Shown one piece after another: positions 3,694-42,090 of a DNA stretch of 64,000 nucleotides. The position numbers and the translations under genes were made by a program. This DNA is from Sisyra terminalis (lineage: Eukaryota; Arthropoda; Insecta; Neuroptera; Sisyridae). Position 1 is the stretch's first letter. Each line of letters starts with the position of its first letter. Location: assembly GCA_958496175.1 (NCBI GenBank), contig OY292275.1, positions 59,163,701 through 59,227,700 of the forward strand, written 5' to 3'. The notes beneath the pieces were generated by a model. The model saw only the letters and a program-made list of their open reading frames with translations, ran no database searches and was not told the DNA's origin.

Positions 3694-3867
3694 AAATTGG
3701 TAAAAATATTCAGAGGACTAGGATCAAAAAATAATCAGTCCAAACTATTTATTACATGATACTAAACAGTTACATGTAATAAATAGTTTTCACTGATTAT
3801 TATTTGATCCTAGTCCTCTGAATATTTTTACCAATTTATCATCATCGAGGATCTGAAACTTTACAAT
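3694..3867. mobile_element. Palindromic element Q with 13-bp TSD
   Basis: A near-perfect inverted repeat (about 3693-3838; arms begin AAATTGGTAAAAATATTC) followed by a 29-base unpaired tail. It is flanked by exact 13-bp copies of AATTTACGAAAAT at 3681-3693 and 3868-3880 and splits the LINE relic. The architecture equals that of families A and B, but I see no hammerhead core. Confidence 0.85.
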
Positions 3868-3990: not shown

Positions 3991-5306
3991 TTTTATAATT
4001 AGTAGAATCAACAAAAAGTGTTATGAAAATACTACAAAATATAATAACCACGAAAATTTAAATCTTATTTTCAAGTAAAATTCGTATTTCCATTGAGTTT
4101 ACTTTAAAATTAAATGCTTTTTTTATTGATTTGGTATTTTCAATAATTTGTACAGTAGTAGACAAAAGGTTGAGGACAATCACTGTGATTATATCACTGA
4201 TTTAAGCTTACAAGTGGTTGAAAACTTTTAGGTTTTAATTTTATTGTATAAATAACGGTAATACTTTCCAATTCTCCAAGTACTTCAAAAAGAATACGAA
4301 AATAATTTTTTCCATTAGTATTATAAATTATTGCATAAATGAACGACTTCGTCGAAATTTTAAGTACATAAATCAAACGATTGCCAATTTTTTTTCTTTA
4401 TTCCCAAATGTTTACTGCTGTGATCGGTTTGTTTGATTTTTACTTAACTATATAATATTATCATTCTTCAATCTCAATATGATTTTTGTTATGGATCGAG
4501 AATTGATCATTCCACGTCAATTACATAGATAATCGATCAATTAAACGTTGAAAAAAGATTTAACGATATTTTTCTCTTAATTGGATACCGATTTTGCACA
4601 TATATGATCTTTGCAAAACGGAGAAAAAATATTCCATATCAAATTTGAAAGTTTAGTTGGAATGTTTACGAAAGTATTGAATAATTTTACTAACGATTTT
4701 TTTTCTTTTAAATGTGTCATTCAGTGATTTTGATAATACTAGAATCAAAAAATGATTCAAACAAATTCCTTTGAGTTATGAATCAGTTTTGATAGGTTTT
4801 CGTGGAAAGCAAGAAAACGATTTTATTATCGTCTCGTTGGAACTATCGCTTTCTTAAACCTTGAATGTCAGAATGGTTCGTTTGTATTATTATTATTATT
4901 TTTTGTGTTTTTAAATTTCAAGTGTCCAAAATTGGGGTGAAACTTTCGGTTTCTCTTTCGGAGATTTTTGTTGTTGTTGTTGAAAGCCGATTGGATCCGT
5001 TTGTTGTTATAGTCCTTTCAGTTCCAAATAGGAAAAAAAATAGAGCTCATTAAACTTTTCGATCGTCGAAATTAATTGAAAAAAACTTTATGAGTCATTA
5101 TTAACTAATAGAAATGAAATTTTTTATGTTTCGGTTTGAGTTCGTGACGGCTATTTTTAGGCCAATGCTGTTCACAAAAGACTCTTGTCGATTCACAGTT
5201 CCTTAAAATATTTTTTTTATTTCTTCAAATATTTGCTTGATAAATGAAAGATTGAAATTTTTTAGAAAATAATCATATCTATTTGTGATTATCCTTTGAT
5301 ATATAT
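3991..5306. other. AT-rich stretch, no gene seen
   Basis: Contains short ATT and TTG microsatellite tracts near 4885-4905 and 4968-4982. The open frames at 4194-4376 and 4865-5053 are low-complexity and unrecognised. Confidence 0.5.
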
Positions 5307-5308
5307 TA

Positions 5309-6324
5309 GACTGATTCAAAAAAAATTATGATTTTTTTTTTCTTAGTTATATCGAAAATATTGTTGGAAATGATAAAAAAAAATCCTGTGAAAGTTTAAG
5401 CTCTTAATATTAATATTAAGAGGTGCCGCATCGCAAATTTCGATTTTCCATTTAAATAACATGGGGACAATATTCTATTGCACTTTAGAATTTTATAGAC
5501 CACGTTGGTGACAATATTTCGGAATGACCAAGGTATATTCTTGTAGAAAATTGAACGATCTACAAAAAAGGTGTGTTACAAGTTTTTGATATATTTATTC
5601 CTTCAAAAGTTATTCGAGGTCAAAGTTGAACTAAAGAGATATTTTAATATTTTTTTCAATTTTTTTGACGCAACCATCAATTTTATGAGAAAATTTTATA
5701 GGACATTTTTTGTAGATCCCTTTTTTTCTATAACTTATCTCTATAAAAGTTTTTGATATTTTTCACAGGTCCTAAGTTATTTGCATTAAACTGAAAATTC
5801 CCTGTTTTATTATATTTTTAACATAAAAATTATTTTTTTTATTTTAATTAAATAACTTAGGACCTGTGAAAAAAATCAAAAACTATTATAGAGATAAGTT
5901 ATAGGAAAAAAAGTGCTCTACAAAAAATGTCCTATAAAATTTTCTCATAAAATTGATGGTTGCGTCAAAAAATTGAAAAAATATTGTTAAATTTCTCTTT
6001 AGTTCAACTTTGACCTCGAATAACTTTTGAAGGAATTAATATATCAAAACATTGTAACAGACCTTTTTTGTAGATCGTTCAATTTTCTACAAGAATATAC
6101 CTTGGTCATTCCGAAGCATTGTCACCAACGTGAGCTTTAAAATTCCAAAATGCAAGAGAATATTGTTCCCAAGTTATTTAAATGAAAAATCGAAATTTGC
6201 GATGCGGCACCTCTTAATATTAATATTAAGAGCTTAAACTTTTACAGGATTTTTTTTTGTCATTCCCAACAATATTTTCGATATAATTAAGAAAAAAAAA
6301 ATCATTATTTTTTTTGAAGCAGTC
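5309..6324. mobile_element. Family C 1-kb foldback element (C1)
   Basis: A 1016-bp palindrome. Termini GACTGATTCAAAAAAAAT and its complement (one base changed at the right end) are flanked by TA at 5307-5308 and 6325-6326, as in Tc1/mariner MITEs. The arms pair over nearly their whole length and meet near 5830. Each arm carries the internal palindrome TTAATATTAATATTAA. Short frames inside (5571-5756) are repeat artefacts. Copies C2, C3 and C4 lie at 38.2, 52.6 and 57.6 kb. Confidence 0.9.
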
Positions 6325-6326
6325 TA

Positions 6327-9300
6327 ATATATATTCTTTTCAATCTCTCATAAATTCAGATAAAATTTTTCAATTTATTTAGGGCCATTCCCGATATTAT
6401 TAACTTTAAAAGTAGATAGGCGAAGAAATCGTGTAAAATTTCAAAAAATGAAATTTAGTCAAGCGGCAAATTATTTCTTCATTGGTTGATTTCAAATGGA
6501 ATGACCCTATAATGATCTTTAACGATAATTTATCGAATTCCGTGAAGACGTCTTTCTCATCTTTTCCCTTCTTGCTGCCCATACAAACCACATGAATTGT
6601 ACCTGTTTGTCCAAATTCAGAAATTGTCAAGTGGGTTGTCTTCCATTTTGGCAATTTTGCAAATTTATTATCTTAATGTTTTTTTTTTTTTAACTTTTTA
6701 ATTTCAGTCATTTAATATACCTTTCGGTTTTGTAAACTCTTAAGTTCCAAATTTGTTGACTTGTTTCATTGGTGTTTCCATTCTTTCTTTTTTATCATGT
6801 TGGTCTTATTTGCTGTTTAATTTAGAAGCGTGTTTGGTCCCAATCAATCTTCAAAGCCACTCTCTTATCGGAAACGAGACTAAATTAGCTGTTTAAGCTT
6901 CAAAGACAGGAATCACAGATTTCCCCCCATCGAAATTAGTTGTCGACTTTAAAATCCGCACGTAACTTAACCGTCTCCCTTAAATCCCGTCGTTGCTAAA
7001 CTTTTCCACCCCTTCGATTAATTTAAGCGTGGCTAATGCAACCTAACAAATTGTCAATATGTCCAGATCGAAATGTTTCTTTCTTCGATCAATCCAATAC
7101 AAGTGAATGGGAGTTGAACGAAAATTGGCTTGAAAATGATTTAAGTGGAAAATTATGTATCGATTTAGTTGTCAGATGCAAACGTGGACATGAAGTGTTT
7201 TGGAGGACATGAAAATTATGTAGATCACCGTGTGATTTGTTGTGGAGCGTTTCAATTGGTAACATATTCATAAATTGGAGAGTTTTCTGTCGTAATGGGA
7301 AATTATGTGTATGTTACGATTGTTATGGGCGATTTATACGACCAGTGTTGGTTGGAACGAGGAAACATGCCGGTTTCTCTCGTTTAAATCTCTTTAAATT
7401 CTGTCTCTATTTTATCATTTACATATATACGATTTAGGTGAAATAAATACTATTTACAACAGTAATAGATTGGTATTAGAACTTACTGGTAAACTTGTAC
7501 GTCCGTGAAAAGAAATTTAAATTTCTAATAAAAATACTTTGGCCTATTTTTTGTGTATCAATAAAATCTGTTAAATTCTTCCCACCTAAATTGGGCTCTT
7601 TTTAACCCTTTGTATCAAATATAAGTCAAGGTAAATATTCAAAGATCAAGGAAAACTTTGTTACATGTGGTTCACCTGTTTTAATATACTATTTTTTTTA
7701 TTTTCAAATAAATTGCATAGGGCTGCAATAAGTGCATTCAATCCATAGACAATCACATGTAAGCACTAGTCCCAGTAGATTAGTGCTGTATAAGTACAAA
7801 ATAGATTTTTAACAATAAATAGCAACAATAACAATACATAATAGTAATTCTTATAGCAATAACAACAATATTAAAAGCAATCAACAGTAGCAATTAGAAT
7901 AATAACAATAGTCTATAATAACAATATCAATGCTAATAATAATGTGAAACATTAATTTATAAGTAATATATGAAAATATAGCTATATAGTAAGAAATAAT
8001 AGTTTGGAAACAGATAGTTAATAGGAATATTTGTTTAGTTACAAAATCTATCAGGCAAATCTATTACATTCCATTGTTGTAACCTTATTATCATCTCACT
8101 GTTGTCCAATAAGTTTATTGCCAGATGGCTGGAATGATCAATCTAGTTTTGTCAACTATTTTTTACTAAATCTTTGAATTTCTTCATTTACTGATGGCAT
8201 TTCTGTATCTTCATGTATTTTTTTTATTGTTTACATACCATGGAGCACCGAATATTTGTCGTAGGATCCTTGATTGAAATTTTTGTTAATATACTATTTG
8301 ACGATTTTTTTTACAAAATATGAGTTATGTAAGAAATTAATTTTTTTTCTAACAATGATATTGCAGAATTTTTTTCGTAGGAGACAGGAGGAGCAGCTCC
8401 TCCACACTAACGATTAATAAATTCAGATTTTTCATTTTTTTCTTGAGTCTTTTCTATCTTCTACAACATCAAATATGAATTCTTTTCCTATGAGAGTATA
8501 AATTATCTAGTTAATTTTTTTTAATTGTCAACAAATCAATAACTTTTCTCGTTATGTTTTTCCATTCTTCTTCAGCTCCAAAGTGCAAAGTTTTCCAGAT
8601 TCCTGTTTTTTTTTTTTCAAACCTTATACTATCTGAAGCATACACATTTGACAAACAATTTCTGAAATTTTCGTAGAAAAATATCCAAAACTTTGCCATT
8701 GTGACGTAATTTCCGGTGACCTTTCGGAAAAAAGCCCTTCGTCCAAGTCCTTGTGACTTATATCTCGAATACCTGTATAAAATTTCATCAAAATTGATTG
8801 AGTAGTTCTTCGGTTGACAAAGACAGTTTCGAGAAAAGTGGGCTTATAGTTTTGAGTAACAATTATTTTTTTTAACAATTTATATTCAATATTTATAATC
8901 CTGGATAAAAAATTGTGGATATTTCTGTAAGATACTCTTGTATTAATATAATTGCCTTCATGCTAATTGAGTTTTTGAGATCTGAGTTTATCCACGTGCA
9001 AAAGGAATCTAGTCGAGATTATTCAAATGATCAATGTCAAATTTTTGGTTCAGGTCTCCATAAAGAATAAAGAGCCGTTAGGTGTTGATAATAAGCAAGC
9101 AAATCTTTATCTCTATTTTGAAATTACAAAAGATTTGGAAGCTGAGGACATTCTTCTCTTTATACGTTTTGTTTGCATAGAAAAAAATTTACAACAAAAG
9201 CTTATATTATGCGTTTAAGTTTGGTTAAATTTAATTTGCCACTTTGTAGTTTCAAATTAGTTCTGTAAAATTTAGCAAATAAATCGGTATTTCTGTGGAT

Positions 9301-9904: not shown

Positions 9905-10819
9905 AGAAGCGCAATTATCTTCATTGAAATCATTGATTAAGAGAAGGGACATTTTTTATTTGATTGATTTTCATTCTAAACTATACTATAATAATTGGTT
10001 TCTGCATGGGGCAGGAAAACATGAAAAATGATGTCATACAACTCATATGGGTGGAAGAACAGAAAAGATAGTCATGGATACTTCTAATTAATTCCAGTTC
10101 CCTCCAGTTTTTAGTTTGAAAAATCTTGATAATCTGACCGGAATTTTTTTTTGCATTACAGCATTAAAGTCTTTTTTGGTTCGGGTTGTTTAAAATTTAT
10201 TGAATTCATAACAAAATATGAATAAATGATGAAAATTTTTATTAATGTTTTGGCTCAAGTGTACTTTAGCACACCCACAATTTGGCAACGATGAATTTTC
10301 GACTTTGTTTTTATTTAAATTCGCGATTTAATTGGTACATAATGAAAATTTAGCCACAAAAGAGAGAATTATACCATATTAGAATTGAATCAGCAAAAAT
10401 ATCGCGAATTAAATTAAAAACAAAGTCGAAAATGCATCGTTGCCAGATTGTGGGTGTGCTAAAGTACACTTGAGCTAAAACATCAATAAAAATTTTCATC
10501 ATTTCATATTTTGTTGTTAATTTAATAAATTTTAAACAACCCGAACCAAAAAAGACTTTAATACTGAAATGCAAAAAAAAATTCCGGTTAGATTATCAAG
10601 ATTTTTCAAACTGAGAACTGAAGGGAACTGGAATTAATTAGAAGTATCCATGACTATCTCTTTTCTGTTCTTCCACCCATATGAGTTGTATGACATCATC
10701 TTCCATGTTTTCCTGCCCCATGCAGGAACCAATTATTATAGTATATTTTAGAATGAAAATCAATCAAATAAAAAATTTCCATTCTTTTAATCAATGATTT
10801 CAACGAGGATAGTTGCGCT
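9905..10819. mobile_element. Large palindromic element J
   Basis: An inverted repeat of about 0.9 kb. The left arm starts near AGAAGCGCAATTATC, the right arm ends near GATAGTTGCGCT, and the arms meet around 10340-10390. The core includes CTAAAGTACACTTGAGC, which recurs at 10458 and just beyond the right end at 10818, and inverted near 10253. Part of this core reappears in palindrome W at 16.3 kb. I could not define a TSD or superfamily. Confidence 0.75.
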
Positions 10820-14031: not shown

Positions 14032-14292
14032 AATTAATAATGTTCTTGGGAACGTGGATTCAAATAATAAGACGTTATTTTTCAAATTATCTCAACGCTT
14101 CGTTGGTATTTATTTCCAACTTCTTCAGGAGAACTAAAACATAATAACAACGCATGTTGTTCAAAGCCAAATTACACAAATTAATTTTCGAAACGTTGAG
14201 ATAATTTGAAAAAATAACATCTTATTATTTGAGTCCAAGTTTCCAAGAAGATTATTAATTATTTACCACACCATGGATGAGAGCAACCAGGA
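14032..14292. mobile_element. Family B palindromic element (B1)
   Basis: A 261-bp shortened copy of family B. It starts AATTAATAATGTTCTTGG and ends in the non-palindromic tail GGATGAGAGCAACCAGGA. Exact 12-bp duplications ATTCCTGTTAAT lie at 14020-14031 and 14293-14304. Left-arm hammerhead-like motif at 14071-14128; the right arm keeps only the GAAACGTT part. Confidence 0.9.
14071..14128 (-). ncRNA. Hammerhead-like motif, B1
   Basis: Minus strand: CTGAAGA, stem GTTGG / CCAAC, then GAAGC where GAAAC is expected, and a distal AACGTC. The A to G change falls on the residue that should pair with the U before the cleavage base, so this copy is probably dead. Confidence 0.4.
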
Positions 14293-14696
14293 ATTCCTGT
14301 TAATGAATGCTGTATTCTTGGTTTATATTCATACTGCAGTTTAGGAAACATAAAAGAAAGCTATAGAAGTCTTACAAATTTTTAAAGTTTTAATTGCAGT
14401 TACATTTCAGTACTTAGACACCTGTTGTTAATGTTATAGATTCGATGATTGGGAAAGCAAAGATATGTGTTGAAACAAAATTCAAATTGAATTTTAAACT
14501 ACAATTATCTTTGCTTTGTTACCAAAACAATTTATTTTACCTTAGGTATCTAAATGTTTTGGGACTTTTAGTAGTGTGTATACAATATATAAGATATATT
14601 GCAGTCCAATTTATGTAGTATAATTTAATATAATAATATATAAAAATCATACCACAAAAATAAATTTGAACAGACGTTCAAAACAAAAATATTTGT

Positions 14697-14744
14697 GACG
14701 TATTGCCCAGATACGTATTTCGATTGCCAAGCAATCTTCATCAG
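14697..14744 (-). ncRNA. Hammerhead-like motif, A3 left arm (intact core)
   Basis: Minus strand: consensus CTGATGA, A, perfect 6-bp stem GATTGC / TTG / GCAATC, GAAA, a 6-bp stem ACGTAT / CTGGGCA / ATACGT and a final C giving GTC. This agrees with hammerhead core positions except for two extra bases (A and T) between GAA and the stem III strand. Flanking bases do not form an evident helix I. Confidence 0.5.
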
Positions 14745-14820
14745 TGGTCCTCAAGTAGTTTGGATCACTCCGTAACTGCTTTGTGATGATTCACAAGCAC
14801 ATCATCATCATTGATGACCA

Positions 14821-14867
14821 CTGATGAAGATTGCTTGGCAATCGAAATACATATCTGCCAATACGTC
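14821..14867 (+). ncRNA. Hammerhead-like motif, A3 right arm
   Basis: CTGATGA at 14821-14827, perfect stem II with TTG loop, GAAA, then a stem III one base shorter than in the left arm and with a mutation (ACATAT against ATACGT), and GTC at 14865-14867. Confidence 0.45.
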
Positions 14868-15041
14868 ACGCATATTTTTATTTGAACTTCTGTTCAAATT
14901 TATGTTTGTCGTATGATTTTTATATATTATTATATTAAATTATACTACATAAATTGGACTGTAATATATCTTATATATTGTATACACAGTATAACTGTTC
15001 AAAGTCAGCGAAAAAATCTTATTTTGAATAACTTTTAGTAG

Positions 15042-16095: not shown

Positions 16096-16538
16096 TTTTT
16101 TGGTATAAGCTTGGATCAGGAACGTCGAGATATTCCGAACTGTAGATAACTATTCCGAATGGGTACGTATTGTTCACTCGAATGCAATTTGTACGTAAAC
16201 TTTGACAAGCCAGAAATGAAGAAGTGACGGTTATTTTTATTATGGCTCGATTTGATCGCGAATTAAATTAAAACAAAGTCGAAAATGCAACGTTGCCAAA
16301 TGGTGAGTGTGCTGAAGTGGACTTGCCCAAAGTAGACTTTATTTAGAAAATGTAATTTTACATAATACAATATAAATACATAATTGAAAATAACAATCAC
16401 TACTTTATTTCTGACATGTCAAAATTTACGTACAAATTGCATTCGAGTGAACAATACGTACAGGAATAATATCGAAACCATTCAAAAAAAATTCTCAAAT
16501 TTCGACGTTCCTGATCCAAGCTTATACCGATTTTTTTT
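16096..16538. mobile_element. Palindromic element W sharing a module with J
   Basis: The left arm (about 16096-16225, with AAGCTTGGATCAGGAACGTC) and right arm (about 16395-16535, GACGTTCCTGATCCAAGCTT) are inverted. The spacer at 16255-16340 matches the core of palindrome J: GCGAATTAAATTAAAACAAA, CGTTGCCAAAT, GTGTGCTGAAGT. No TSD identified. Confidence 0.7.
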
Positions 16539-17157: not shown

Positions 17158-17958
17158 GGGTGATTTTTTTTTTGAATTTTTATTTATTTTTGCTCCCATC
17201 GTTAAATTTTGTTGGAAATACCAAAAAAAACAAAATTCCCTGAAAGTTTGAGTCCTTAATATTAATTTTAAGTCCTCGACCAAGACGTGTAAAGATTTCC
17301 CATTGAAAATACACAGAAACTCTGATTTTTTATTTTTAAATTTCTATACCTCAGCGACATTTCATGGGATCGCTATTACCGAAGATGATTTTTTCTCACA
17401 ATTAAACGCTCTACAAAAGTGCCCATTGCGGTAAAGTCGTAACTCACACCGGTGAGGTAGTACGGCCCACTGAACCTGATTTTTCCATAAAATTCAAGGC
17501 TTAATATCTCGTTTAATATTGATCTTCGCGATTTGGTCTACAAGAACTTTTTTGTAGGAAATCAAATTCTTTACAAGTTTTTCATTTATAATTTTTCCGT
17601 AGCTCTCGTTATTGACGAGATAAATGCAAAAAAGACGCTAATTTTATGGAAAAATAAGGTTCAGTGGCCCGTACTACCTCACCGGTGTGAGTTACGACTT
17701 TGTCGCAATGGGCACTTTTGTAGAGCGTTTAATTCTGAGACAAAACCATCTTCGATAAAAGCGATCCCATGAAATGCCGCTGAGATATAGAAATTTAAAA
17801 ATAAAAAATCAGAGTTTCGGTGTATTTTCAATGGGAAACCTTTACACGTCTTGGTCGAGGACTTTAATATTAAGGGCTCAAACTTTCAGAGAATTTATGT
17901 TTGGTATTTCCAACAAAATTTCACGATGGAACCAAAAAAAGTCAAAAAAAAATCACTC
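17158..17958. mobile_element. Family G foldback element (G1)
   Basis: An 801-bp palindrome with termini GGGTGATTTTTTTTT and AATCACTC, and TA on both sides (17156-17157 and 17959-17960). The inverted arms contain CTACCTCACCGGTGTGAG, giving matching peptides in opposite frames of this copy and G2, which is a repeat effect and not a gene. It keeps a decayed form of the TTAATATTAA motif shared with C and D. Confidence 0.85.
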
Positions 17959-20409: not shown

Positions 20410-20775
20410 TTCTAAATTGAAATACTTACTTTGTTCAAAATAATTCCCTCTATTAACTATGCATTTTTGCCATGTTTCTAATAGTTTGTAGATAAAATTT
20501 TAAAAAGCAAATTGTTAATCTTTTGAGCAAAATCTTTCATCAAGTCATTTGTATAGATCTTCGTATGATGTGAAGTGCTGCTCAACAAGTGTAGGTGAGT
20601 CCTATCGATGCAAATACGTAATAATGAGAAGGACCAAGTCTAAGGAGTAGGCCACATGCGGAAATATTTCCAAATTGTATGTCTCAATCCTATCCTTTAC
20701 TCGTTTTTTTATGTAGCCAGGGGAATTACATGCAACAAAATCACTTTTCATTGCCAATTTTGATATTTTAGCTAC
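20410..20775 (-). pseudogene. Mariner transposase C-terminal relic
   Basis: The minus-strand translation, with several frameshifts and stops, gives in order VKDRIETYNLEIFPHVAYSL, PSHYYVFASIG, EQHFTSYEDLYK, LDERFCSKD and IYKLLETWQKCIVNRGNYFE. This is the C-terminal half of a mariner DDD transposase, from the DNAPSH region to the end. The third catalytic aspartate, in the PSD of the consensus, is H here, and the DNA..H motif is degraded. A 68-bp fragment of the same region is repeated at 21059-21127. Inactive. Confidence 0.88.
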
Positions 20776-20995: not shown

Positions 20996-21060
20996 AATTA
21001 ATAATGTTCTTGGGAACTTGGATTTAAATAATTAGACGTTATTTTTCAAATATTCTCAAC
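20996..21060. mobile_element. Family B fragment (B3)
   Basis: Matches the first 65 bases of family B (AATTAATAATGTTCTTGGGA onward, through GACGTTATTTTTCAAA). It stops abruptly where a duplicated mariner fragment begins. Confidence 0.8.
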
Positions 21061-21127
21061 GTTTTTTTATGTAGCCAGGGGAATTACATGCGACAAAATC
21101 ACTTTTTATTGCCAATTTTGATATTCT
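21059..21127 (-). pseudogene. Duplicated mariner fragment
   Basis: A nearly identical copy of 20704-20772, the region corresponding to the DNAPSH block of the mariner relic. Probably part of a local rearrangement around B3. Confidence 0.7.
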
Positions 21128-22044
21128 TTCTGTTTTTCACGTTAAAGCTTAAATCTAAAATCGCAAGATTTTATTAGGTTTGACTACCATTCCCACCCAA
21201 CTACTTTCGAAGTCTTTAAAATTTTTCATTAAGTTTATATTTATGTTTCCTTTAATTTTACGAATTTCATATATTAGGTATATATGAATCATGCCTTGTT
21301 CCATCTATATAAGGACAGTTTAATTTAAGTTGCCAATATTTTTCTTCGAATATTGAAAATATTTTTCTTGTCAAAAAAAAATAAAAGAAACATAATGTAT
21401 TTACATTAAATTATGAAAATTTAAATATCGATTGTTGGAAAAATACGAAGTTTTTTATTTGACAATCAGTAAAGCTCAGGGAGCTTTCTTCATTGAACAA
21501 CCCTGCGGGTATATCAGCTTAACATATAAGAAAACTTTGCTTGGAAAAATAATTATTCCCATTATTCTTTATTTTATTTATTAAATAATAATTGTATTTT
21601 AATCATTATAGGTCAATTTTTGTATACTTACAATTTGATACAGAAATATATAATACCATTGTATGATAAGGATGATCTTTGGGTCAAATTAGAGCCACAA
21701 TAGAGGGCATCGAAGTTGAAAAAATTGAACAATTAATATTTTAAGATATAGGAATCATTGATTTAAGATTTGGCTGCCGATTTTTAAAATGAATTATTTC
21801 AAACCTTTAGGATTTTTTTTATAGAAAGGTATCTCTTATCAACTTGAGCTAGGGATCAAATTTCAGTTAAACGAGGGGAGCATACTCTTACGTTAACTTT
21901 GGAAAGATGTAAATTATTTTACAGTTGAAAAAAAAATATTTAGAGGATCTACCAAATTTGCAAAATCATACCAAAGAGAAGAAGGCATAAAAAGCTCACG
22001 TAATTAATGGATGATAAGATCTCATTACTAATGATTATTCTAGA
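21128..22044. other. No gene seen
   Basis: AT-rich, without recognised relics or long inverted repeats. Confidence 0.4.
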
Positions 22045-22872: not shown

Positions 22873-23061
22873 ACAGTTACTAATAAGTAAAGTTCTATTA
22901 ATCATTTTGGTCCATTGTTGCAATAAGAAAATTAGTTTTTAAAGACACTACTTTAAGGATGTTATGGAGATATAATTGGAAACTAAAGTATATAGAAATA
23001 GAAATTCGTGAATAATTACATCGTATAGCGTACCATGAAATGAATAAATTGGTCGATACTC
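22873..23061. repeat. Dispersed repeat X, copy 2
   Basis: The partner of 20774-20962. It ends 14 bases before the target duplication of the jockey element. Confidence 0.85.
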
Positions 23062-23085
23062 AAAATAAAGTATTTAGTTTTAAGG

Positions 23086-24063
23086 GTCTTGGAGGATAGA
23101 AAATTCTTTGTCAGCTACAACGAAGATCAATCGGGACTCCACCCGGTCGGTGCTGGGGTGCCACAAGGTAGCATACTGGGACCCACACTGTACTTAATTT
23201 ATACGGCAGATTTACCTATCACTGACAATTTGGTAATTGCAACGTACGCGGACGATACAGCGATCATGGCGACAGATCAATGCCCACAGGTTGCGACCGA
23301 AAAATTACAAAGGGCCCTCAACGATTTGGAACCATGGCTTAATAAATGGCAAATAAAAGTCAATGAAGCCAAATCTGTTCATGTGACATTCACTACTCGG
23401 CGAGATACCTGTCCACCGGTATATCTCAACAACCTTCAGGTGCCGCAGGCGACAGAAGTCAAGTATCTCGGAATGCACTTGGACAGAAGACTTACGTGGC
23501 GGAGACATATAGCTGCCAAAAGAGATCAGCTTAAAGCCAAATGCCGTCAACTGCAGTGGCTGATTGGTTGGAGGTCGCAATTGTCCCTGGACAATAAACT
23601 ACTGATATACAAAGTAATTCTAAAGCCAGTCTGGACCTACGGCATCGAACTGTGGGGAACAACTAGCAACTCCAATGTGGATATCCTACAGCGCTTTCAG
23701 TCTAAGACACTCAGACTCATTACGAACGCTCCATGGTATATCACTAACCACGACATACATAAAGACCTGAAGGTGACCACCGTGAGAGAAGAGATCGCCA
23801 GATTCAGCCAAAAATATCAAAAAAGACTGGAAGACCACGCCAATCATCTGGCGATCAGCCTACTTGACAACAGCGGAGAGAACAATAGACTGAAGCGCTA
23901 CACGTTTCTGGAATTGCCTCACAGGGAGTAAGTTCAAGGAGCTTGATTTTGACTCAATAAAGAGTCAATATAGAGCGCGGACGTAGACCAGATTTGCTCA
24001 TTGTCCAGGGACAGATTGCAAATACACAAAAACGGGAGAAAAAAAAAAAAAAAAAAAAAAAAA
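23086..24063 (+). mobile_element. 5'-truncated jockey-clade LINE, recent insertion
   Basis: Flanked by 10-bp duplications AGTTTTAAGG at 23076-23085 and 24064-24073. It contains the end of ORF2, a 3' UTR of about 107 bases and an uninterrupted poly(A) run at about 24039-24063. The truncated 5' end, poly(A) and TSD are hallmarks of target-primed reverse transcription. Its base composition is clearly GC-richer than the surroundings and its frame is intact, so it is probably among the youngest insertions here. Confidence 0.93.
23089..23931 (+). CDS. Jockey-type reverse transcriptase, C-terminal part of ORF2
   Basis: Open frame of 280 codons that enters at the truncation point; the first codon is TTG and is not a true start. 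Residues 21-40 hold the RT motif GAGVPQGSILGPTLYLIYTA, and about 53-58 hold the catalytic YADDTA (two aspartates intact). The thumb region follows with KYLGMHLDRRLTW (about 126-138), then VWTYGIELWG and the C-terminal LRLITNAPWYI. The order and spacing match jockey-clade ORF2. The endonuclease domain and N-terminal RT are missing, so no autonomous activity is expected. Ends at TAA 23929-23931. No RNase H domain is seen, as usual for jockey. Confidence 0.95.
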   Translation: MEDRKFFVSYNEDQSGLHPVGAGVPQGSILGPTLYLIYTADLPITDNLVIATYADDTAIMATDQCPQVATEKLQRALNDLEPWLNKWQIKVNEAKSVHVTFTTRRDTCPPVYLNNLQVPQATEVKYLGMHLDRRLTWRRHIAAKRDQLKAKCRQLQWLIGWRSQLSLDNKLLIYKVILKPVWTYGIELWGTTSNSNVDILQRFQSKTLRLITNAPWYITNHDIHKDLKVTTVREEIARFSQKYQKRLEDHANHLAISLLDNSGENNRLKRYTFLELPHRE

Positions 24064-24172
24064 AGTTTTAAGGAAAATCGGAAATTTCACCAACAATTTT
24101 AAACAAAATAGGAAACATCAAAAAATATAGACAATAATTAATAATGTTCTTGGGAACTTGGATTTAAATAAT

Positions 24173-24233
24173 AAGACGTTATTTTTCAAATTATCTCAAC
24201 TTTTCGTTGGTATTTATTTACAACTTCTTCAGG
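24173..24233 (-). ncRNA. Hammerhead-like motif, B2 left arm
   Basis: Minus strand: CTGAAGA, stem II GTTGT / CCAAC (one mismatch), GAAAAGTT, spacer, AACGTC. The second base of stem III is mutated relative to the right arm. Confidence 0.4.
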
Positions 24234-24466
24234 AGAATTTTTGATGATAACATCCTCGTTGTAAATACTGGCTTTTTAAAAAGATTTTTTATAAGATAAC
24301 CGAGTGAGTACGCTAGTGGAAATTATTATATTATTAATTAATAATAATTATTAAATAATAATCAATTAATTAATAATTGCCACTAGCGTACTCACTCGGT
24401 TATCTTATAAAAAATCTTATTAAAAAGCCAGTTTTTACAACGAGGATGTTAACATCAAAAATTCTC

Positions 24467-24524
24467 CTGAAGAAGTTGGAAATAAATACCAACGAAACGT
24501 TGAGATTATTTGAAAAATAACGTC
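24467..24524 (+). ncRNA. Hammerhead-like motif, B2 right arm (best copy)
   Basis: CTGAAGA at 24467-24473; stem II GTTGG / CCAAC around AAATAAATA; GAAA at 24494-24497; helix III ACGTT at 24497-24501 pairs perfectly with AACGT at 24519-24523; C at 24524 completes the GTC triplet. All core residues of a type I hammerhead are present. The bases outside (AATTCTC upstream, TTATTAATTG downstream) do not pair as helix I. Confidence 0.55.
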
Positions 24525-24608
24525 TTATTAATTGAATCCAAGTTCCCAAGAACATTATTAATTATTTACCACGCCATATGGATGAGAGCAACCAGAAATA
24601 TAGACAAT

Positions 24609-25959
24609 TTTTAACTAACTTTTGGGATTGAATATACCTTGATTTCAACTTAACAAATCGAAATATTATTGATTTGATGATCATAAATTATAAATGTGGA
24701 ATTTTTTAATATGATTAAATCATAAATAAAAGATTAAATTAGGATGTTTTTAAAACAATTATAACAAAAAAGGAAAAAAAAATTAAATTTTTTGCTAATA
24801 AAATAAATTTAATCTGTTTGATATAATTGATAAAATCATAGCATTTTTAAATTACAATAACATTATAAGTGCTAAGTGATTCGATTTAAAATTTTCACAG
24901 GTGGTTTAACATTAAATAAGGAACATTATACTAAATTTATAGTTATCTGGTAACATTTGGCATACCTCCATAACATCCTTAAGGTATTTTTTTTTATTTT
25001 CTAAAGGGAAAATTATATTTCATATTTAGGCATTGAATTTTGACGATATCATGGAAAACTGGGAATTCGGAGATTTGTTTTTCTTATTAGAGAATCTAAT
25101 TGTAAGGGAAGTAGTTTTTTGGAAAATTTTTTAAGATATTTTTCTTTAGAATTCCAACCAAAATTTAACAATTATTAATAAGGTAATTAACTATAAAAAA
25201 TAGCTGGGAATGTCAGAGACTTGGAATATAAGGTTTTCTAGGAATTCTGTGAAAAATCCACACTAAATTTAATTGTTGCAAGCAGAAAATTGGCTTCTAC
25301 ATAAACTACTTTTGAAACACGATTTTTTTATCTTCCTAACTTATACCAGATGTGTATTTTGCCAATGTAAAACTTAGCCAAACTAGAAGTGACAGACTTT
25401 GAAGTCTTTTTTTTTGTATGAAAAAAAACGTATGGAAATCTAAAATTAAATTTTGCCTCTTAAAAGTAGAATTAACAATCAGACGACATCCAAACCAATT
25501 TAGTTGAAGTTTGAAGCCAAAAAAACGGTCCAAATATTATAAAACTTAAACTTAATTACATTGTTATTCATATAACAAGAGCTATTAAAGTGTTTTTATT
25601 GTTGAATTATATAAAACCCATTTTAACAATCATTTGACTGACAGTTTTGAACTTTCACTCATTATCGTCTCACAATTAATGTCACTTTATTGTATATCTT
25701 TTGCTTAAATAAACCAACGTTCCAAATACAGATTTGCTATTAAAACCCGCGCAAATTGTTGTGAAATATGAAAAAATATTTTTCTTGAATGATTTGCCTT
25801 TTCTTTAACATTTGAAGTCTAATTGAATAATTTGATCGATTTGACGTTAAGTACATAGTGAAAGTTTAACTTCTGCTCATCATTTTACGGATTATTAGGT
25901 CGCGTGCGGAATGTTATCAATCCAGAAAGTTGACACTTTTTGCACGCGACTATCTATAC
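24609..25959. other. AT-rich stretch, no gene seen
   Basis: The minus frame at 25336-25533 is unrecognised. No inverted repeats noticed. Confidence 0.4.
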
Positions 25960-25961
25960 TA

Positions 25962-27700
25962 GACTGGGCTAAAAAAATTGACTATTTTTTTTTTTGAAAA
26001 GTATATCGAAAATATTATTAAAGGTGACAAAAATATATTTCGGGAAGGTTTGAGCCCTTACTATTAATATTAAGAGGTATATCATCTTTATTTTCGATTT
26101 TTTATTTGTGCTTTCATTTTTGCGTCAATGCTGTCAAACTATCAAGGTAAAAAAAATCATCTGCACATATATTTTTAGAAAATTAAAATCCCTACAAAAA
26201 CCGTCTCTTTGAAAATTTTTGCCAGACACGCCGTTTCCGAATAATCAAGCTTTAAACATTGATATAATTTTTAGATTTATCTTCTTTATTTTGGAATTTT
26301 GTAACTATCGAACAAATAAATATATAGAAATGAACTATATAGATTCTTAAAGGGAATTTAATGCTCTACAAAAAAGGTCTGTTAACGTTTTTACATAAAA
26401 TCACTTTTTCAAAAGTTATTCACAATTAAAGCTGAAAGAAAAATTAAATTATTGTTTTTTTCGTTGTTGAACCAAATTTGAAAGAGTGTTTTTATGTAAA
26501 AACGTTTTATGTAGAAACCTTTTTTGTGGAGCATTAAATTCCCTTTAAGAATCTATATTGTTCATTTCTATATATTTATTTGTTCGTTTGTTACAAAATT
26601 CCAAAATAATGAAAATAAATCTAAAACTTATATCAATGATTAAAGCTTGATTATTCGGAAACGGCGTGTATGGCAAAAATTTTCAGGGAGACGTTTTTTG
26701 TAGGGAAATCAATTTTATATAAATATATGTGCAGATTTTTTTACTTTGATAGTTTGACAGCATTGACGCAAAAATGAAAGCACAAATAAATAACGAAATT
26801 AAAGATGATAGACCTCTTAATATTAAGGAAGTATTCTAGTCTAGAGGCATGAATTTCAGGTAATTTTTGAAGTGTCATAAAAAATAGCCAATTAATATTT
26901 TTACTATCCATTTTTTTTATCAGTTATTTATTAACATTTCAAGAATACAGAAAAAAAATAAAAAAATAAAAAAAGTGAAAAATTTCAAAAATTAGCAGCT
27001 GATGAAGTGGGGGGTCTCAAAAAATTGGCACGTGACCATACCCACGATTTCAACCCTCCTAGTAATCTGACCCCAAAAAAAAAAGATTTTTAATCTAGAA
27101 TAATGTCGCAATGTCTGGAACTACGGAAAAGTATGAAAAAAAAATTTCACGAAATGGCGACTGCCTGAAAAAAAAAATTTTTTGTACCACTTTTTTTGAC
27201 TGTTTCGAATTTTTTAAAAATAGTAAAAATCAAAATTTGGGGATGGGGATAGTTCCAGACATAGACAAGTCTATATAGAAAACTCTCTAAAAATTTCAGG
27301 TAAATCGGTTCAGTAGAACCTGGGAAATCATGGGTATCGTTTTGAAAAAGACAGTTTCGAGAAAAACGCGTTTAAAGTTTTACGTTAAGTTTCAGGCAGC
27401 GTAATTGATAGAATATTATGTATTACTTACATTCTCTTAATCAGCCATCCCAGCTTCATACAAAACGGCTATAACTTCGGAAATAATTTGAATTTTGAAA
27501 AATCCTTTTAGAAGGATATTTTTGAATATCTAAACTATCGGATTATGAAAAAACAATTTTTTGATTTTTTCAAATTTCTAGAGAGAATGGCCCCTTAATA
27601 TTAAGGGCTCAAATCTTCACGATATTTTTTTTTGTCACCTTAAACAATGTTTTCGATATACTTTTCCAAAAAAAAAAATAGTCGATTTTTTGGCTCAGTC
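25962..27700. mobile_element. Family D foldback element with nested E1
   Basis: Terminal inverted repeats GACTGGGCTAAAAAAATTGA and its near-complement at the right end, flanked by TA (25960-25961 and 27701-27702). The arms pair across a centre near 26430. Without the nested element E1 (26827-27594) it is about 0.97 kb, close to families C and G, and shares TTAATATTAA in the arms. Confidence 0.88.
26827..27594. mobile_element. piggyBac-like TTAA element E1
   Basis: 768 bp, flanked by TTAA at 26823-26826 and 27595-27598. The left end GGAAGTATTCTAGTCTAGAG faces a decayed right end TCTAGAGAGAATGGCCCC. It matches E2 (58490-59259) in reverse orientation along its length. No transposase seen. TTAA duplication points to the piggyBac superfamily. 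Confidence 0.85.
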
Positions 27701-28481: not shown

Positions 28482-29967
28482 TGGGGCATTTCCCGTGAAG
28501 TGAACAGCGAAAAAAAAGTGATGCTCTGAAATTTGTTCATATTTGGCATAATTGTACTGCTAGTGAGTATGAATGTGGATTAGGGTGATTTTTTTTTTAC
28601 TTTTTTGGTCCCATCGTAAAATTTTGTTGGAAATACCAAAAAAAAATTCTCTGAAAGTTTGAGCCCTTAATATAAATTTTAAGTCCTCGACTAAAACGTG
28701 TAAAGTTTTCCCATTGAAAATACACGGTAACTCTGATTTTTTATTTTTAAATTTCTATATCTCAGCGGCATTTCATGGGATCGCTTTTATCGAAGATGGT
28801 TTTTTCTCAGAATTAAACGCTCTACAAAAGTGCCCATTGCGACAAAGTTGTAACTCACACCGGTGAGGTAGTACGGGCCACTGAACCTGATTTTTCCATA
28901 AAATTCGCGTTTTTTTTGCATTTATCTCGTAAATAACAAGAGCTACGGAAAAATTAAAAATGAAAAACTTGTAGAGAATTTGATTTCCTACAAAAAAGTT
29001 CCTGTAGACCAAATCGCGAAGATCAATATTAAACGAGATATTAAGCCTTGAATTGATTTTTCTGTGAAATTTTTGCCGATCATTGATTTAAACTTATAAA
29101 TTGATATAAAGAAAATATATTGATATAAATTTAATATCTCGTTTAATATTGATCTTACGATTTGGTCTACAGGAACTTTTTTGTAGGAAATCAAATTCTC
29201 TACAAGTTTTTTATTTACAATTTTTCCGTAGCTCTTGTTTTTTACGAGATAAATGCAAAAAAACGCGAATTTTATGGAAAAATCAGGTTCAGTGGCCCGT
29301 ACTACCTCACCGGTGTGAGTTACGACTTTGTCGCAATGGGCACTTTTGTAGAGCGTTTAATTCTGAGAAAAAACCATCTTCGGTAAAAGCGATCCCATGA
29401 AATACTGCTGAGATATAGAAATTTAAAAATAAAAAATCAGAGTTTCCGTGTATTTTCAATGGGAAATCTTTACACGTCTTGGTCGAGGACTTAAAATTAA
29501 TATTCAGGGCTCAAATTTTCAGGGATTTTTTTTTTTGGTATTTCCAACAAAATTTCACGATGGGACCAAAAAAAAAATGTCAAAAAAAAATCACCTAATG
29601 TGGATACAAAATATTTTTTTCGAATGATGATTATTTGCCAAGTTATACGCTTCTAAAGAATTGTCGTTTTTGAAATTCGTATTTTTTTTTTATTTTTTTT
29701 TTCAACTTAAACCCCATGTTAAACTTAAACTTTCATTTCCCCTCAATTTCCCGAGTGATCGTACCCCTTCCACAGCATATTTGTACAAAACATAGTCTTT
29801 CCTCTCATTGTTAAAACAATTAGAACAATTTTGTACAAATATGCTCATCATTCGAAAAAAATATTTTGTATCCACATTCATACTTACTAGAAGTACAATT
29901 ATGCCAAATATGAACAAATTTCAGAACATCATTTTTTTTCGCTGTCCGCTTCACGTGAAATGCCCCA
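28482..29967. mobile_element. Palindromic element H with nested G2
   Basis: Ends TGGGGCATTTCCCGTGAAG and CTTCACGTGAAATGCCCCA with TA at 28480-28481 and 29968-29969. Removing G2 leaves about 470 bp, whose arms contain ATGTGGATACAAAATATTTT and its complement near 29597-29640 and 29840-29880. Confidence 0.85.
28583..29595. mobile_element. Family G foldback element (G2), nested in H
   Basis: 1013 bp; ends GGGTGATTTTTTTTTT and AAAAAAATCACC, TA at 28581-28582 and 29596-29597. Same arms as G1 at 17.2 kb, with a longer centre near 29040-29150 carrying a second inverted duplication. Internal frames on both strands (28773-29012, 29149-29400) translate the same repeat and are not genes. Confidence 0.9.
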
Positions 29968-35391: not shown

Positions 35392-35402
35392 ATGTACATA
35401 CT

Positions 35403-35780
35403 GTCTATACAATATATAGAATACATTGCGGTCCAATTTAAGTAGTATAATTTAATATAATAATATATAAATATCATACCATAAACATAAATTTGAACAG
35501 AAGTTCAAACAAAAATATTCGTGACGTATTGCTCAGATACGTTTTTCGGTTGCCAAGCAATCTTCCTCAATCATCACAAAGCAGTTACGGAGTGATCCAA
35601 ACTACTTGATGACCACTGAGGAAGATTGCTTGGAAATCGAAATACGTATCTGGGCAATACGTCACGAATATTTTTGTTTGAACTTCTGTTCAAATTTGTG
35701 TTTATGGTATGGTTTTTATGTATTATTATATTAAATTATACTACATAAATTAGTCAGTGAAAAAAATCTTATTTTGACTA
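35403..35780. mobile_element. Family A palindromic element (A4)
   Basis: 378 bp with part of the centre and right arm lost. TSDs ATGTACATACT (35392-35402) and ATGTACATATT (35781-35791) differ at one base. The tail AAAAAAATCTTATTTTGACTA is retained. The left-arm core is broken (TTGAGGA); the right-arm core is kept. Confidence 0.87.
35616..35663 (+). ncRNA. Hammerhead-like motif, A4 right arm
   Basis: CTGAGGA at 35616-35622, hairpin with TTG loop and one mismatch (GATTGC against GAAATC), GAAA, ACGTAT / ATACGT stem, GTC at 35661-35663. Confidence 0.45.
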
Positions 35781-38245: not shown

Positions 38246-39245
38246 AACTGATTCAAAAAAAATGATAATTTTTTTTTTCTTAATTATATCGAAAATATTG
38301 TTGGGAATGACAAAAAAAAATCCTGTGAAAGTTTAAGCTCTTAATATTAATATTAAGAGGTGCCGCATCGCATATTTCGATTTTCCATTTAAGTAACATG
38401 AGAACAATATTCTCTTGCACTTTGGAATTTTATAGCTCACGTTGGTGACAATATTTCGGAATGACCAAGGTATATTCTTGTGGGAAATTGAACGATCTAC
38501 AAGAAAGGTCTTTGTACAAATTTTTGATATATTTATTCCTTCAAAAGTTATTCGAGGTCAAAGTTGAACTAAAGAGAACTTTTTAAAAATTTTAAATTTT
38601 TGGCGCAACCATCAATCTTATGAGAAAATTTTATAGGACATTTTTTGTAGAGCAATTTTTTTTATAACTTATCTTTATAAAAGTGTTTGATATTTTTTAC
38701 AGGTCCTAAGTTATTTGCATTAAACTGAAAATTTCCTGAATTAATATATTTTAACACATTTTTTTTATTTTTATTTTAATTAAATAACTTAGGACCTGTG
38801 AAAAATATATAAAATGTTTATAGAGATAAGTTGTAGAAAAAAAGTGTTCTACAAAAAATGTCCTATAAAATTTTCTCATAAAATTGATGGTTGCGCCAAA
38901 AAATTGAAAAAATATTAACATTTCTCTTTAGTTCAACTTTGACCTCGAATAACTTTTGAAGGAATAAATAAATCAAACACTTGTACAAAGACCTTTTTTG
39001 TAGATCGTTCAATTTTCTACAAGAATATACCTTGGTCATTCCGAAATATTGTCACCAACGTGAGCTATAAAATTCCAAAGTGCAAGAGAATATTGTTCCC
39101 ATGTTATTTAAATGGAAAATCGAAATTTGCGATGCAGCACCTCTTAATATTAAGAGCTTAAACTTTCACAGGATTTTTTTTGTCATTCCCAACAATATTT
39201 TCGATTTAATTAAGAAAAAAAAATTCATTTTTTTTTGAATCAGTC
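38246..39245. mobile_element. Family C foldback element (C2)
   Basis: 1000 bp, TIR ACTGATTCAAAAAAAATGAT against its complement, TA at 38244-38245 and 39246-39247. The left arm keeps TTAATATTAATATTAA but the right arm has only TTAATATTAA. Confidence 0.9.
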
Positions 39246-39247
39246 TA

Positions 39248-40985
39248 ATGTATATGAATTCTTTCCCGCAATTCGAACTGAAAAATAATAGTTTTAAAAT
39301 GGTTTTTAGTGACTGGCCATTATTTATAAGATTTACGTTGTCGTAAATCCTGTTAAGTTTTGATTTTTTTTAAGTAGTCTGGAATATAATTAAGCGAACA
39401 AAAAATTTAAGACAAATGTTGCCAACTGCTGTTTATTTAAAGCATCGAAATGGTCTTTCAAACCTTGATTTTGGGAATAAGATTAAGTACAAAAAACGGC
39501 TTCTTTAGTTCTGAGCAATGGAGTGAAAAATTGTTACGATTACCACTTGGAAATTAAGTGATTTTTAACATTTTTATACATCCAAAAATAATTAAAAGCT
39601 CCGAGCAAAAAGAATTCTAGCGCCAACAAAAACAAACATCTAAAAATTGATTCTCTTTTCCAATGAATCAAACAAAAACCTCTTAAACCAAATACTTAAG
39701 ACATACCAAACGAAAAAAGCGCGAAACTAATTTGGTGACCAGAGCGCCCAAGTCCCATAAATTACGTCGCAAAGTTCGTCTAAAAACTTATTAACTCTAA
39801 TTGTTTTATAAATAGAAACCGAAGCGTATGGCCATTGAAAATATAAATATATTTTCTCCAACCGAAAATATGTCCATTCGAACCATTTGTCTCGAGACGT
39901 AAAATTGACGTAAATCAAAACGTTAAAAAAAATGAACGGTGGCGCCATAATTAAAATAGGCACTTTTTCGTCATAAACGAAAAAGACTCACTTTTGGGAT
40001 ACGGAAAAAACGGCAATTAAACTCGGCTATTTTTGGGACGAAAACTGGCGAATTTAAAAATAAATTTGTTAAATACGTGTACGAAATTTATGGTATGTCC
40101 GGTGGTGTTTAAAAGGGTAAAATTCAATTAGTCACAGCTGGAAAATCGATTTTCACTACATAAGTGAAACGTGGGCAAAATTTTACTTCACAAAATGAAA
40201 TCAGAACATGAAAAGATCTAATAACATAATTATTTTAATTATAGGTATACCAGCATTTTTTTCCTTTAGCAAAATAATATATTAATTTTATTCCGAGATA
40301 TTAACTTGTTATGTTTATTATAAATGCAAAATATGCATAGATTAATATATAAATAACGTTAATGAAAATAATTATGAGATACACGAGCACTCATTGGCAA
40401 TTATAGCATTTTCGAATAAGAAATTATTTGATGATGAATGTTTGAAAAGCGACGAAGAAAACCAATTTGCATGATTGTTCGTTTCATACTTGCAACAATC
40501 AATTCCGTTGATTGAATATATTGGAATGGCTTGACGATTGTTTTACGAGAAGTTCTGATGGAAATCTTCAAGTTTGGTCCAATTGGTTCCGGTTGCTTTG
40601 TCTTCTTTTTTTCTACATGAAAAACCACACGAGCCGGTGCATAGTTGGATGGAGATGTATTGGTGTGAAATGCATTTAAGTTTTCCGAAAGAATTTTAAT
40701 GAACGAAGCATTACACTTCTAAAGTGTAAAAATGATCATTATTGATTGGAATTTCAATGCTTTGACATTCCCAAGAGTTTCCATTCGATTTAAGTGATAA
40801 TGTGGCAACTTTGGATAATGAAACTTTTGATTTTTTCTAATTAAAAACTATTTGGATTTGAAGATTTTCTTGGAAGATTTTTCTATGCTATGGGGTTTTG
40901 TATTCCTTTTAAAGGGCTGTATTTTCATTTGCTAGATGAGAGAAAATGTATTTATAATTTTTTTGAGAAAAATTCAGTCAAAGAT
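39248..40985. other. No gene seen; slightly GC-richer patch 39.7-40.1 kb
   Basis: Minus frames at 39727-39963 (78 codons) and 40401-40628 (75 codons) are open but unrecognised and lack supporting motifs. Confidence 0.35.
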
Positions 40986-40997
40986 TAAGAAAATCCT

Positions 40998-41258
40998 GGT
41001 TTCAGCTTTTATTTTTTTAAATAAGAAGACATTTTAGGTTGTTAAAGATTGGTTTTTTTATTTAATATTTTGACTATTCAATTAGCTACGTTTCGTTACG
41101 TATCGTAACTTCATCAGGCTTCTTGATTCACAAAAATAAAATATTTTATTTTTGTGAAGTTACGATACGTAACGAAACGCAGCTAATTGAATAGTAAAAA
41201 TATTAAATAAAAAAAACCGTTCTTAAATAACCTGAATTGTCTTCTTATTTAAAAAAAA
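40998..41258. mobile_element. Palindromic element U with hammerhead-like motif
   Basis: 261 bp with inverted arms around a TTTTTGTG-type centre. Exact 12-bp duplications TAAGAAAATCCT lie at 40986-40997 and 41259-41270. The outer sequence is unrelated to A and B but the architecture is the same. Confidence 0.88.
41072..41117 (-). ncRNA. Hammerhead-like motif, U
   Basis: Minus strand: consensus CTGATGA, A, perfect stem GTTACG / ATA / CGTAAC, GAAAC, a weak helix III of two pairs (AC / GT), and GTC at the expected place. The second arm (about 41150-41190) keeps stem II and GAAAC but has lost CTGATGA and has GTA instead of GTC. Confidence 0.5.
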
Positions 41259-41282
41259 TAAGAAAATCCTAAAATATGCATT

Positions 41283-42090
41283 ATTAACACTTCAAAACTT
41301 GCTATACAAAATTGAGGAATGGGCTGGAAGGTGGAAAATTAAATTTAACTCCATAAAATAAATGCTTATTACCTTTACCTTGCATAAAGAAACATGGCTT
41401 CTTGCGATTATCAACAATTTGGCGTTGCCAAAATCCAAATAGATCAGTGGTTCTTAAAGTAGATTTCGTGGAATTCTGGAGTTCCACGAAATAAGTTGTA
41501 TGATTTTAAAATTTTTGTAAGATAAATTACAATAGTCTAAAATCCGGATCCTGTACTTCAAAGTTTTTATAAAAATGCATCAAACTATTAATGTAAGGCA
41601 TTGTTTATAAATTATTAATTGATTTATCAAATTTAGTAAACACCGATGTCATCATTGTTATTACTGTTTTCTGAGATATCTACTACTACTAATCTAGTTT
41701 ACGACAGCTTTAGGCATAGTTTTGAAAACCCTGATTTAGATAAGGCGCTTACTTGGACTCAACACAAGAAGGCAAGAAAGGCATTTAAACTGGAAATTTA
41801 AAAGGAAAAATTAGTTCATGAAAATTAATTTAATATCTATAAAATCTTGCTGAAATCCGTATGGATGTATGGAGTTCAGTGATGGGAAACTGCATACAAT
41901 TCCAATATATAAATACTTCAATGATTTAAGTCCAAAATACTTAGATAAATCATCAATATTTCGGCAAAGTACTCGAGAATAAGGAAACTTTAACATTAAG
42001 CAGAAGATACACAGGTTCTGAGAAAAATCCGGGAAATATTGGATGAACTTCTGAATAGCATATTTAACCCAGTCAATAGCAGACTAAAGT
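41283..42090 (+). pseudogene. Jockey-type LINE ORF2 relic, split by a hAT MITE
   Basis: Before the MITE: IEEWAGRWKIKFNSIK and ITFTLHKE. After it (from about 41742): KALTWTQHKK, ILLKSVWMYGVQ, WETAYNSNI, FKSKIL and a decayed C-terminus. Compared block by block with the intact copy at 23.1 kb (LNKWQIKVNEAKS, RRLTWRRH, VILKPVWTYGIELWG, SNSNVDILQRFQSKTLRL) it is the same clade. Several stops; inactive. Confidence 0.85.
41445..41733. mobile_element. hAT-like MITE inside the jockey relic
   Basis: 289 bp from CAGTGGTTCTTAAAGT to TTTTGAAAACCCTG, typical hAT termini. Flanking 8-mers AAATAGAT (41437-41444) and ATTTAGAT (41734-41741) match at six of eight positions. It interrupts the RT frame between the KSVH-like and RLTW-like blocks. 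Confidence 0.8.

Follow-up and report, generated by a model that had tools for sequence, protein, structure and literature searches.

A palindrome of 460 bp in the genome of Sisyra terminalis raises two questions: what kind of element it is, and how its two halves came to stand head to head. The palindrome, here called B2, occupies positions 24136-24595 of the window, the stretch of 64,000 nucleotides that was analysed and to which all coordinates refer. It carries a hammerhead-like motif and is apparently a Penelope-like insertion, in which two reverse transcripts of one RNA were joined head to head.

Architecture of B2 and related elements of the window

Inverted-repeat search places two arms of 211 nt (24133-24343 and 24356-24566), 93% complementary to each other, on either side of a 12-nt head-to-head junction spacer (24344-24355). 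Within the element, the left arm covers 24136-24343 on the minus strand and the right arm 24356-24563 on the plus strand. The two ends are asymmetric. Alignment shows 32 bases at the right end (24564-24595, plus strand) that are absent from the left, whose tail-less end at 24136 has the same boundary in a second element of the family, B1. Exact matches to the core of this one-sided tail number 217 in the genome, and the reversed control has none. The tail probably reaches into the start of an open reading frame (ORF), seen as ATGGATGAGAGC in other copies. An exact 13-bp repeat, AAATATAGACAAT, flanks the element at 24123-24135 and 24596-24608. An earlier note on this DNA had described a palindromic element with these limits and a 13-bp target-site duplication (TSD), and both are borne out, the palindrome being bounded exactly by the repeats. 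A reverse transcriptase frame of the non-LTR type (Pfam RVT_1) lies at 23044-23931.

The plan of B2, with inverted arms, a tail at one end and a TSD, is repeated by B1, D, E1-E3 and F. B1 (14032-14292, plus strand) is head-to-head, with an intron-type left arm and a TSD of 12 bp, ATTCCTGTTAAT. A B-arm fragment, C (20998-21064, minus strand), consists of one arm only, and no TSD was found for it; beside it a direct repeat of about 66 bp was seen by eye at about 20705-20770 and 21063-21128. D (40998-41258, minus strand) is also head-to-head and is unrelated to B in sequence; it has a one-end tail, a 12-bp TSD, TAAGAAAATCCT, and a hammerhead motif found by descriptor at 41084-41120 on the minus strand. 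The E family is represented on the plus strand by E1 (2211-2688), with a motif in each arm (2382 minus, 2482 plus) and a 12-bp TSD with one mismatch; by E2 (14575-15030), with a motif at 14744 minus and an 11-bp TSD, ACTTTTAGTAG; and by E3 (35401-35780), with a motif at 35616 plus and a 9-bp TSD, ATGTACATA. F (3694-3867, plus strand) is head-to-head on the B2-like plan and has a 13-bp TSD, AATTTACGAAAAT; no motif was seen in it.

The window as a whole is very rich in palindromes. Two inverted-repeat elements of about 800 bp (38347-39153 and 57681-58489) have the end TTAATATTAAGAGGTGCCGCATCGC in common, and the 13-bp repeats near their ends may belong to the ends themselves. More long inverted repeats, with arms of 75-430 nt, lie at 5299-6334, 10063-10662, 28618-29555, 52593-53542, 17267-17867, 26153-26742 and 16163-16461, and are probably other MITE-like families. 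At 45066-45201 a short-spacer inverted repeat has TTTAGCGACAAA in the middle and a second time in the flank to its right.

The hammerhead-like motif

In the right arm of B2, descriptor and fold agree on a minimal hammerhead of type I order at 24463-24505 (plus strand), which reads TCTC CTGAAGA A GTTGG..CCAAC GAA ACGT T GAGA. Its parts are stem I (24463-24466/24502-24505), the core (24467-24473), stem II (24475-24479/24489-24493), GAA (24494-24496), ACGT (24497-24500) and H17 (24501). When 24440-24545 is folded, the TCTC and GAGA of stem I pair with a probability of 0.95-1.0 and stem II, GTTGG/CCAAC, forms; the predicted cleavage site, inferred from the fold, would fall at 24501^24502 on the plus strand. 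CTGAAGA, the 5-bp stem II and GAAA, all named in the earlier note, are present in this arm. Its proposed helix III, ACGTT (24497-24501) with AACGT (24519-24523), is complementary over five pairs but has a pair probability of 0.0; the fold instead pairs AACGT with bases further upstream, where it lengthens stem I outwards. That model also placed cleavage at GTC, which it leaves without an adjoining stem I, whereas the fold predicts 24501^24502 instead. With a pair probability of 0 and no stem I, this helix III was rejected. A motif had been claimed for each arm; this holds for the right arm, but in the left (24194-24236, minus strand; descriptor scan, coordinates counted from the start at 24232) the motif is decayed, with GAAAAGTT in place of GAAACGTT and a stem II of 4 bp, one pair shorter.

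What is left for stem III in B2 is the self-complementary ACGT alone, which closes only between two motifs. The candidate hammerhead could therefore work only as a dimer or with the help of a protein. Minimal hammerheads of Penelope-like elements (PLEs) were reportedly treated by Cervera and de la Pena in 2014 and by Luense in 2017. Reviews, in the portions available, describe them as minimal, without helix III and perhaps acting as dimers (PMC6155905, PMC7761336). The likeness to B2 extends to type I order, the lack of an intramolecular helix III and the proposed dimer action, whereas motifs of the B2 type have other sequences and a twin non-coding context.

The minimal-type descriptor finds six complete motifs from three families in the window, in the right arm of B2, in D (41117 minus) and in four E-family arms; 300 Markov-shuffled windows gave none. 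Over 270,024 bases, comprising the window and non-duplicate loci, in which the regions of B2 and B1 and some of their neighbours occur twice, it finds 81 sites, 26 of them outside family B, against 0 sites for each of eight permuted cores. Eight representatives from about seven families have different stems, all of which pair, the descriptor itself requiring three pairs in stem I and four in stem II. In the flanks of the B copies L024, L028, L054, L061, L062 and L070, further minimal hammerhead motifs occur, with stems of their own and up to nine stem I pairs; these are several more families.

Within family B the motif has no privileged status. Across 106 B arms, conservation is 96.5% in the core, 98.3% in stem II and 96.9% in the rest of the arm, and the motif is intact in 57 of them. 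Since it is no better conserved than its surroundings and so often broken, the motif appears to belong to the source RNA and to decay freely after insertion. The earlier note had looked to covariation among genomic copies. Decay of stems II and III goes uncompensated in these arms, no stem having more than one cell in which both sides changed (one in stem II, none in stem I), and covariation within family B was rejected as proof of a ribozyme. We read this as the decay of dead insertions, because stems that differ across about seven families still pair. To judge from the sequences, the recurrence of the core and the three-stem logic with different stems suggests a role in the source RNAs.

The hammerhead likeness may be a relic or a binding structure without self-cleavage, in an insertion that is otherwise PLE-derived. 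Rfam hammerhead models, also named in the earlier note, gave no covariance-model match in the window at gathering threshold, nor in 24100-24640 and 40950-41300 up to E = 10; the families that appear below threshold are unrelated ones, with many miRNA hairpin models among them. This result and the uncompensated decay of stems II and III are two of the outcomes that the earlier note had listed as refuting. The fold energy of the B2 right arm is only mildly better than that of its shuffles (z -1.83; -0.22 to -1.65 in four other arms). A scan of viral contigs with a 30-base piece of the motif gave no match. The missing Rfam match, the weak z-scores and the lack of extra conservation suit a relic or binding structure, as does an anole PLE whose hammerhead, in the accessible text, cleaved only with protein and was dispensable for insertion, mutants still being inserted (PMC11167929). 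Recurrence of the core and three-stem logic with different stems in about seven families speaks against it. This reading is tentative, and less likely than not. Rfam hammerhead models can miss motifs of the minimal PLE type.

Copies in the genome: tails, splicing and junctions

In the genome (376.6 Mb, 11 contigs), a first-look search with B2 turned up 799 candidates; scoring 40 of these yielded 104 matches. The search with E turned up 2906 candidates, 40 of them scored. Among 66 tail-anchored B records, 54 have a tail-less opposite arm, two (one locus, L080) are tailed at both ends and ten are without an opposite arm, so that the tail is one-sided in 54 of 56 two-armed records. Of the scored E sites, 38 of 40 have one tail, one has two and one has none, and one tail was found in 14 of the 15 E copies read in sequence, 11 of which show a TSD-like repeat. 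These counts favour the one-tailed form, since the E sites and the earliest B loci had been chosen for their similarity to one-tailed queries. A sample ordered by position, the first 30 of the 217 exact-tail sites, all on contig C1, has an opposite-strand arm end head-to-head within 1.1 kb at 29 sites. TSDs scoring at least 9 were found at 18 of these 29; they measure 9-16 bp, 11 of the 18 being 12 or 13 bp long.

Exact TSDs of at least 10 bp occur in 31 of the 56 two-armed B records, compared with 0.6% of 1107 swapped-flank comparisons; at 9 bp or more the figures are 38 of 56 and 1.3%. A convincing TSD is absent from 18 of 56 B records and from 4 of 15 E copies. Two of the ten records lacking an opposite arm, L036 and L047, carry an exact TSD near the lone arm, of 13 and 12 bp respectively, which indicates that one-sided insertions exist too. 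The sequences that follow the 30 exact tails have nothing in common from one site to another. The tails run into unshared flank without an ORF, and these copies are therefore non-autonomous at best.

Some loci are more complex. L009 and L034 have more than two B arms (-,+,+ and -,+,-,+), a possible sign of tandem or repeated insertion. At L075 an E-family element lies inside a B element with AAGATAACAGTGT on both sides (by eye), a nested insertion. At L059 the B tail adjoins a D-family motif downstream (TTGATGAAGTTACGATACGTAACGA).

In being small and non-coding, with a hammerhead in type I order, the unit also recalls the metazoan retrozymes, retrotransposons in which the hammerhead frees a unit-length circular RNA and which, according to the parts of PMC7229834 available, PLEs are proposed to move. 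As described there, retrozymes are likewise small non-coding retroelements with hammerheads of type I order, but they are tandem, their hammerheads are canonical and their RNAs circular. The elements studied here are head-to-head rather than tandem (56 of 66 B records), with a second copy on the same strand at L009 alone; they have no helix III of their own (pair probability 0), and their arms start well upstream of the predicted cleavage site. A retrozyme origin is very improbable.

Most of the examined arms have passed through an RNA stage. The arm at L067 reads ..AACATCAAAAG^GTAAGG..TTATGTTTTAG^TTCTCCTGAAG.. upstream of the hammerhead, where the common form reads ..AACATCAAAAATTCTCCTGAAG... 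The joined exons of L067 and of L075 each differ from the common form by one base. Because a GT..AG stretch is missing precisely, the common form is taken to be a spliced copy. Spliced junctions were counted at 54 loci, intron/exon-2 junctions at 11 and exon-1/intron junctions at two. Upstream of AGCCAGTA, the leaders of L075 and L077 have TTGACCC..TATAATG in place of the common leader, which may reflect a second intron or another start.

The two arms of an element agree in splice state. Fifty-two loci combine a tailed with a tail-less arm. Of these, 30 are spliced in both arms, four retain the intron in both and none is mixed; 14 others have a truncated arm and four an unclear arm, of which L065 and L082 are intron/intron by eye, the reading at L082 using the last few intron bases only. 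The position-ordered sample contains eight spliced/spliced and four intron/intron elements (six by eye) and none mixed (Fisher's test by hand, 0.002; 0.0003 with the readings by eye). Three commoner variants are found in both arms of six, nine and six elements and in one arm of zero, two and three, respectively; ten other variants, including the two positions of a CG, are mostly one-armed. The two arms of an element differ by 4.8%, arms of different elements by 6.5% (permutation p 5e-5, n = 37), the nearest arm being the partner in only 11 of 37 elements. Together, the matching splice states, the shared variants and the closer arms suggest a single RNA, or several with a common source, behind both arms.

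Agreement in splice state and variants would also be expected if a single target-primed cDNA folded back and served as primer and template for its own second arm. Self-priming, with an antisense strand as template, was suggested in 2013 for rotifer Penelope (PMC3846280). An antisense template should be unspliced, yet most of the examined arms are spliced. A copied first arm should, moreover, include the tail, yet only one end is tailed and the other stops at a fixed position. The inner arm ends point both ways. They lie no more than 5 nt apart in 17 of 33 elements, as self-priming also predicts and to the detriment of the two-ended route set out below, although many of these 17 sit at the first base of the query, where measurement stopped. 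In the remaining 16 the distance exceeds 5 nt, each arm having been shortened on its own. Where a locus has one arm truncated within the hammerhead exon, the truncated arm is the tail-less one in eight loci and the tailed one in five. Snap-back may have produced part of the copies, but by itself it does not explain one-sided tails, and as the general route it is unlikely.

In the same 33 two-armed elements the spacer measures up to 622 nt, the other extreme being an overlap of 1 nt. Many spacers are AT-rich and no two are alike; the BLAST links between them trace to AT-rich runs, to a short end of the leader and, once, to a longer piece of it. With spacers and inner arm ends both differing, each palindrome looks made afresh at insertion. 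The palindrome as a replicating unit was rejected on this variation. The mobile unit proposed in the earlier note therefore survives as a mobile insertion with a TSD and not as a moving palindrome. High copy number, long inverted arms, the TSD and the abundance of other long inverted repeats in the window would all suit a fold-back or MITE-like DNA transposon whose hammerhead likeness had arisen by chance. Such an element is the least credible of the alternatives, scarcely to be reconciled with a one-sided tail in place of symmetric terminal inverted repeats, TSDs that vary from 9 to 16 bp, spacers that differ between copies and precise intron loss, which marks an RNA step.

Relation to Penelope-like elements and the route of insertion

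B2 shares several features with PLEs: inverted pseudo-LTRs (pLTRs) with a tail of about 30 nt at one end (32 nt in B2), a short TSD (13 bp) and, as predicted by descriptor and fold, a minimal hammerhead motif in the pLTR. These fits in layout, TSD and motif support the Penelope connection drawn in the earlier note. A frame for a PLE reverse transcriptase with a GIY-YIG endonuclease was not found within the element in the examined copies. Nor was an autonomous PLE found; a search with the Pfam GIY-YIG profile PF01541, which may miss PLE endonucleases, gave one match among 107 scored candidates. This match presumably represents the host nuclease SLX1, which it resembles. As layout, TSD and motif fit but the defining proteins were not found, the statement that B2 inserts like a Penelope element is firmer than the statement that it was moved by a Penelope element still present here.

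The head-to-head form was unfamiliar to the earlier note. It is already known for PLEs: the available text of PMC3846280 gives inverted pLTRs, a one-sided tail of about 30 nt and a short TSD as typical of Penelope. In the GIY-YIG Penelope of Adineta vaga, as reported there, the pLTRs are inverted, one bears a 31-bp tail and the TSDs are 8-10 bp long. Head-to-head pLTRs with one tailed, short TSDs, palindromes at the junction and intron-bearing copies link that element to those described here. The rotifer elements, by the same account, are few and carry an ORF or captured DNA, whereas the copies examined here are without an ORF, number at least hundreds and are in many cases spliced; hammerheads have 0 occurrences in that part of the paper. 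Non-coding twin pLTR elements were not met in the literature consulted, mainly titles and the openings of abstracts, and may nevertheless be in print.

A second parallel is Poseidon of Anolis carolinensis (PAc). In the available sections of PMC11167929, reverse transcription of this anole PLE starts at two adjacent internal sites, the tail being the stretch between them, and both strands are cut and extended. PAc resembles the present elements in the minimal hammerhead of its pLTR, in that tail, in the cutting and extension of both strands and in its AT-rich targets. It differs in being tandem with a full ORF and in a hammerhead that overlaps the start of this ORF (PMC11167929); in the present elements the likely ATG follows the predicted cleavage site by about 80 nt.

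B2 is thus probably a non-coding insertion derived from the leader, or pseudo-LTR, of a PLE, made of two cDNAs that were primed from both ends of the target and joined 5'-to-5'. (i) A PLE-type enzyme, we infer, would make staggered cuts in the two strands of the target, about 12-13 nt apart. (ii) Reverse transcription would be primed by each target 3' end, the template being one and the same sense RNA, spliced or unspliced, or several RNAs that share a source. (iii) Reverse transcription would start at either of two adjacent internal sites, yielding one tailed and one tail-less end. (iv) The two cDNAs, often 5'-truncated, would then be joined 5'-to-5'. Weighing against this account are the failure to find a gene for the PLE enzyme, the missing Rfam match, a motif conserved no better than the rest of the arm, records that have no convincing TSD or no opposite arm, and partner arms that are seldom each other's nearest. 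The hammerhead would be inherited from the source RNA and not maintained after insertion, and an autonomous source would be expected to have its frame after ATGGATGAGAGCAACCAGGA. With somewhat less assurance, we incline to regard the twin insertions at large as a natural record of two-ended target-primed reverse transcription, in which a PLE-type particle would use the same spliced sense RNA from two neighbouring starts and join the products head to head.

If true, two-ended priming would explain why Penelope has inverted pseudo-LTRs and a tail on one side, with no need for self-priming on antisense RNA. The 2024 in vitro study of the anole element states, in the text available, that the later integration steps remain to be validated (PMC11167929). 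The genome of Sisyra terminalis holds at least hundreds of short, datable reaction products. Their one-sided tails, the agreement of their arms in splice state and the unequal lengths of those arms bear on models of PLE integration and can be counted genome-wide. These many sister copies may record how a poorly understood class, the PLEs, inserts.
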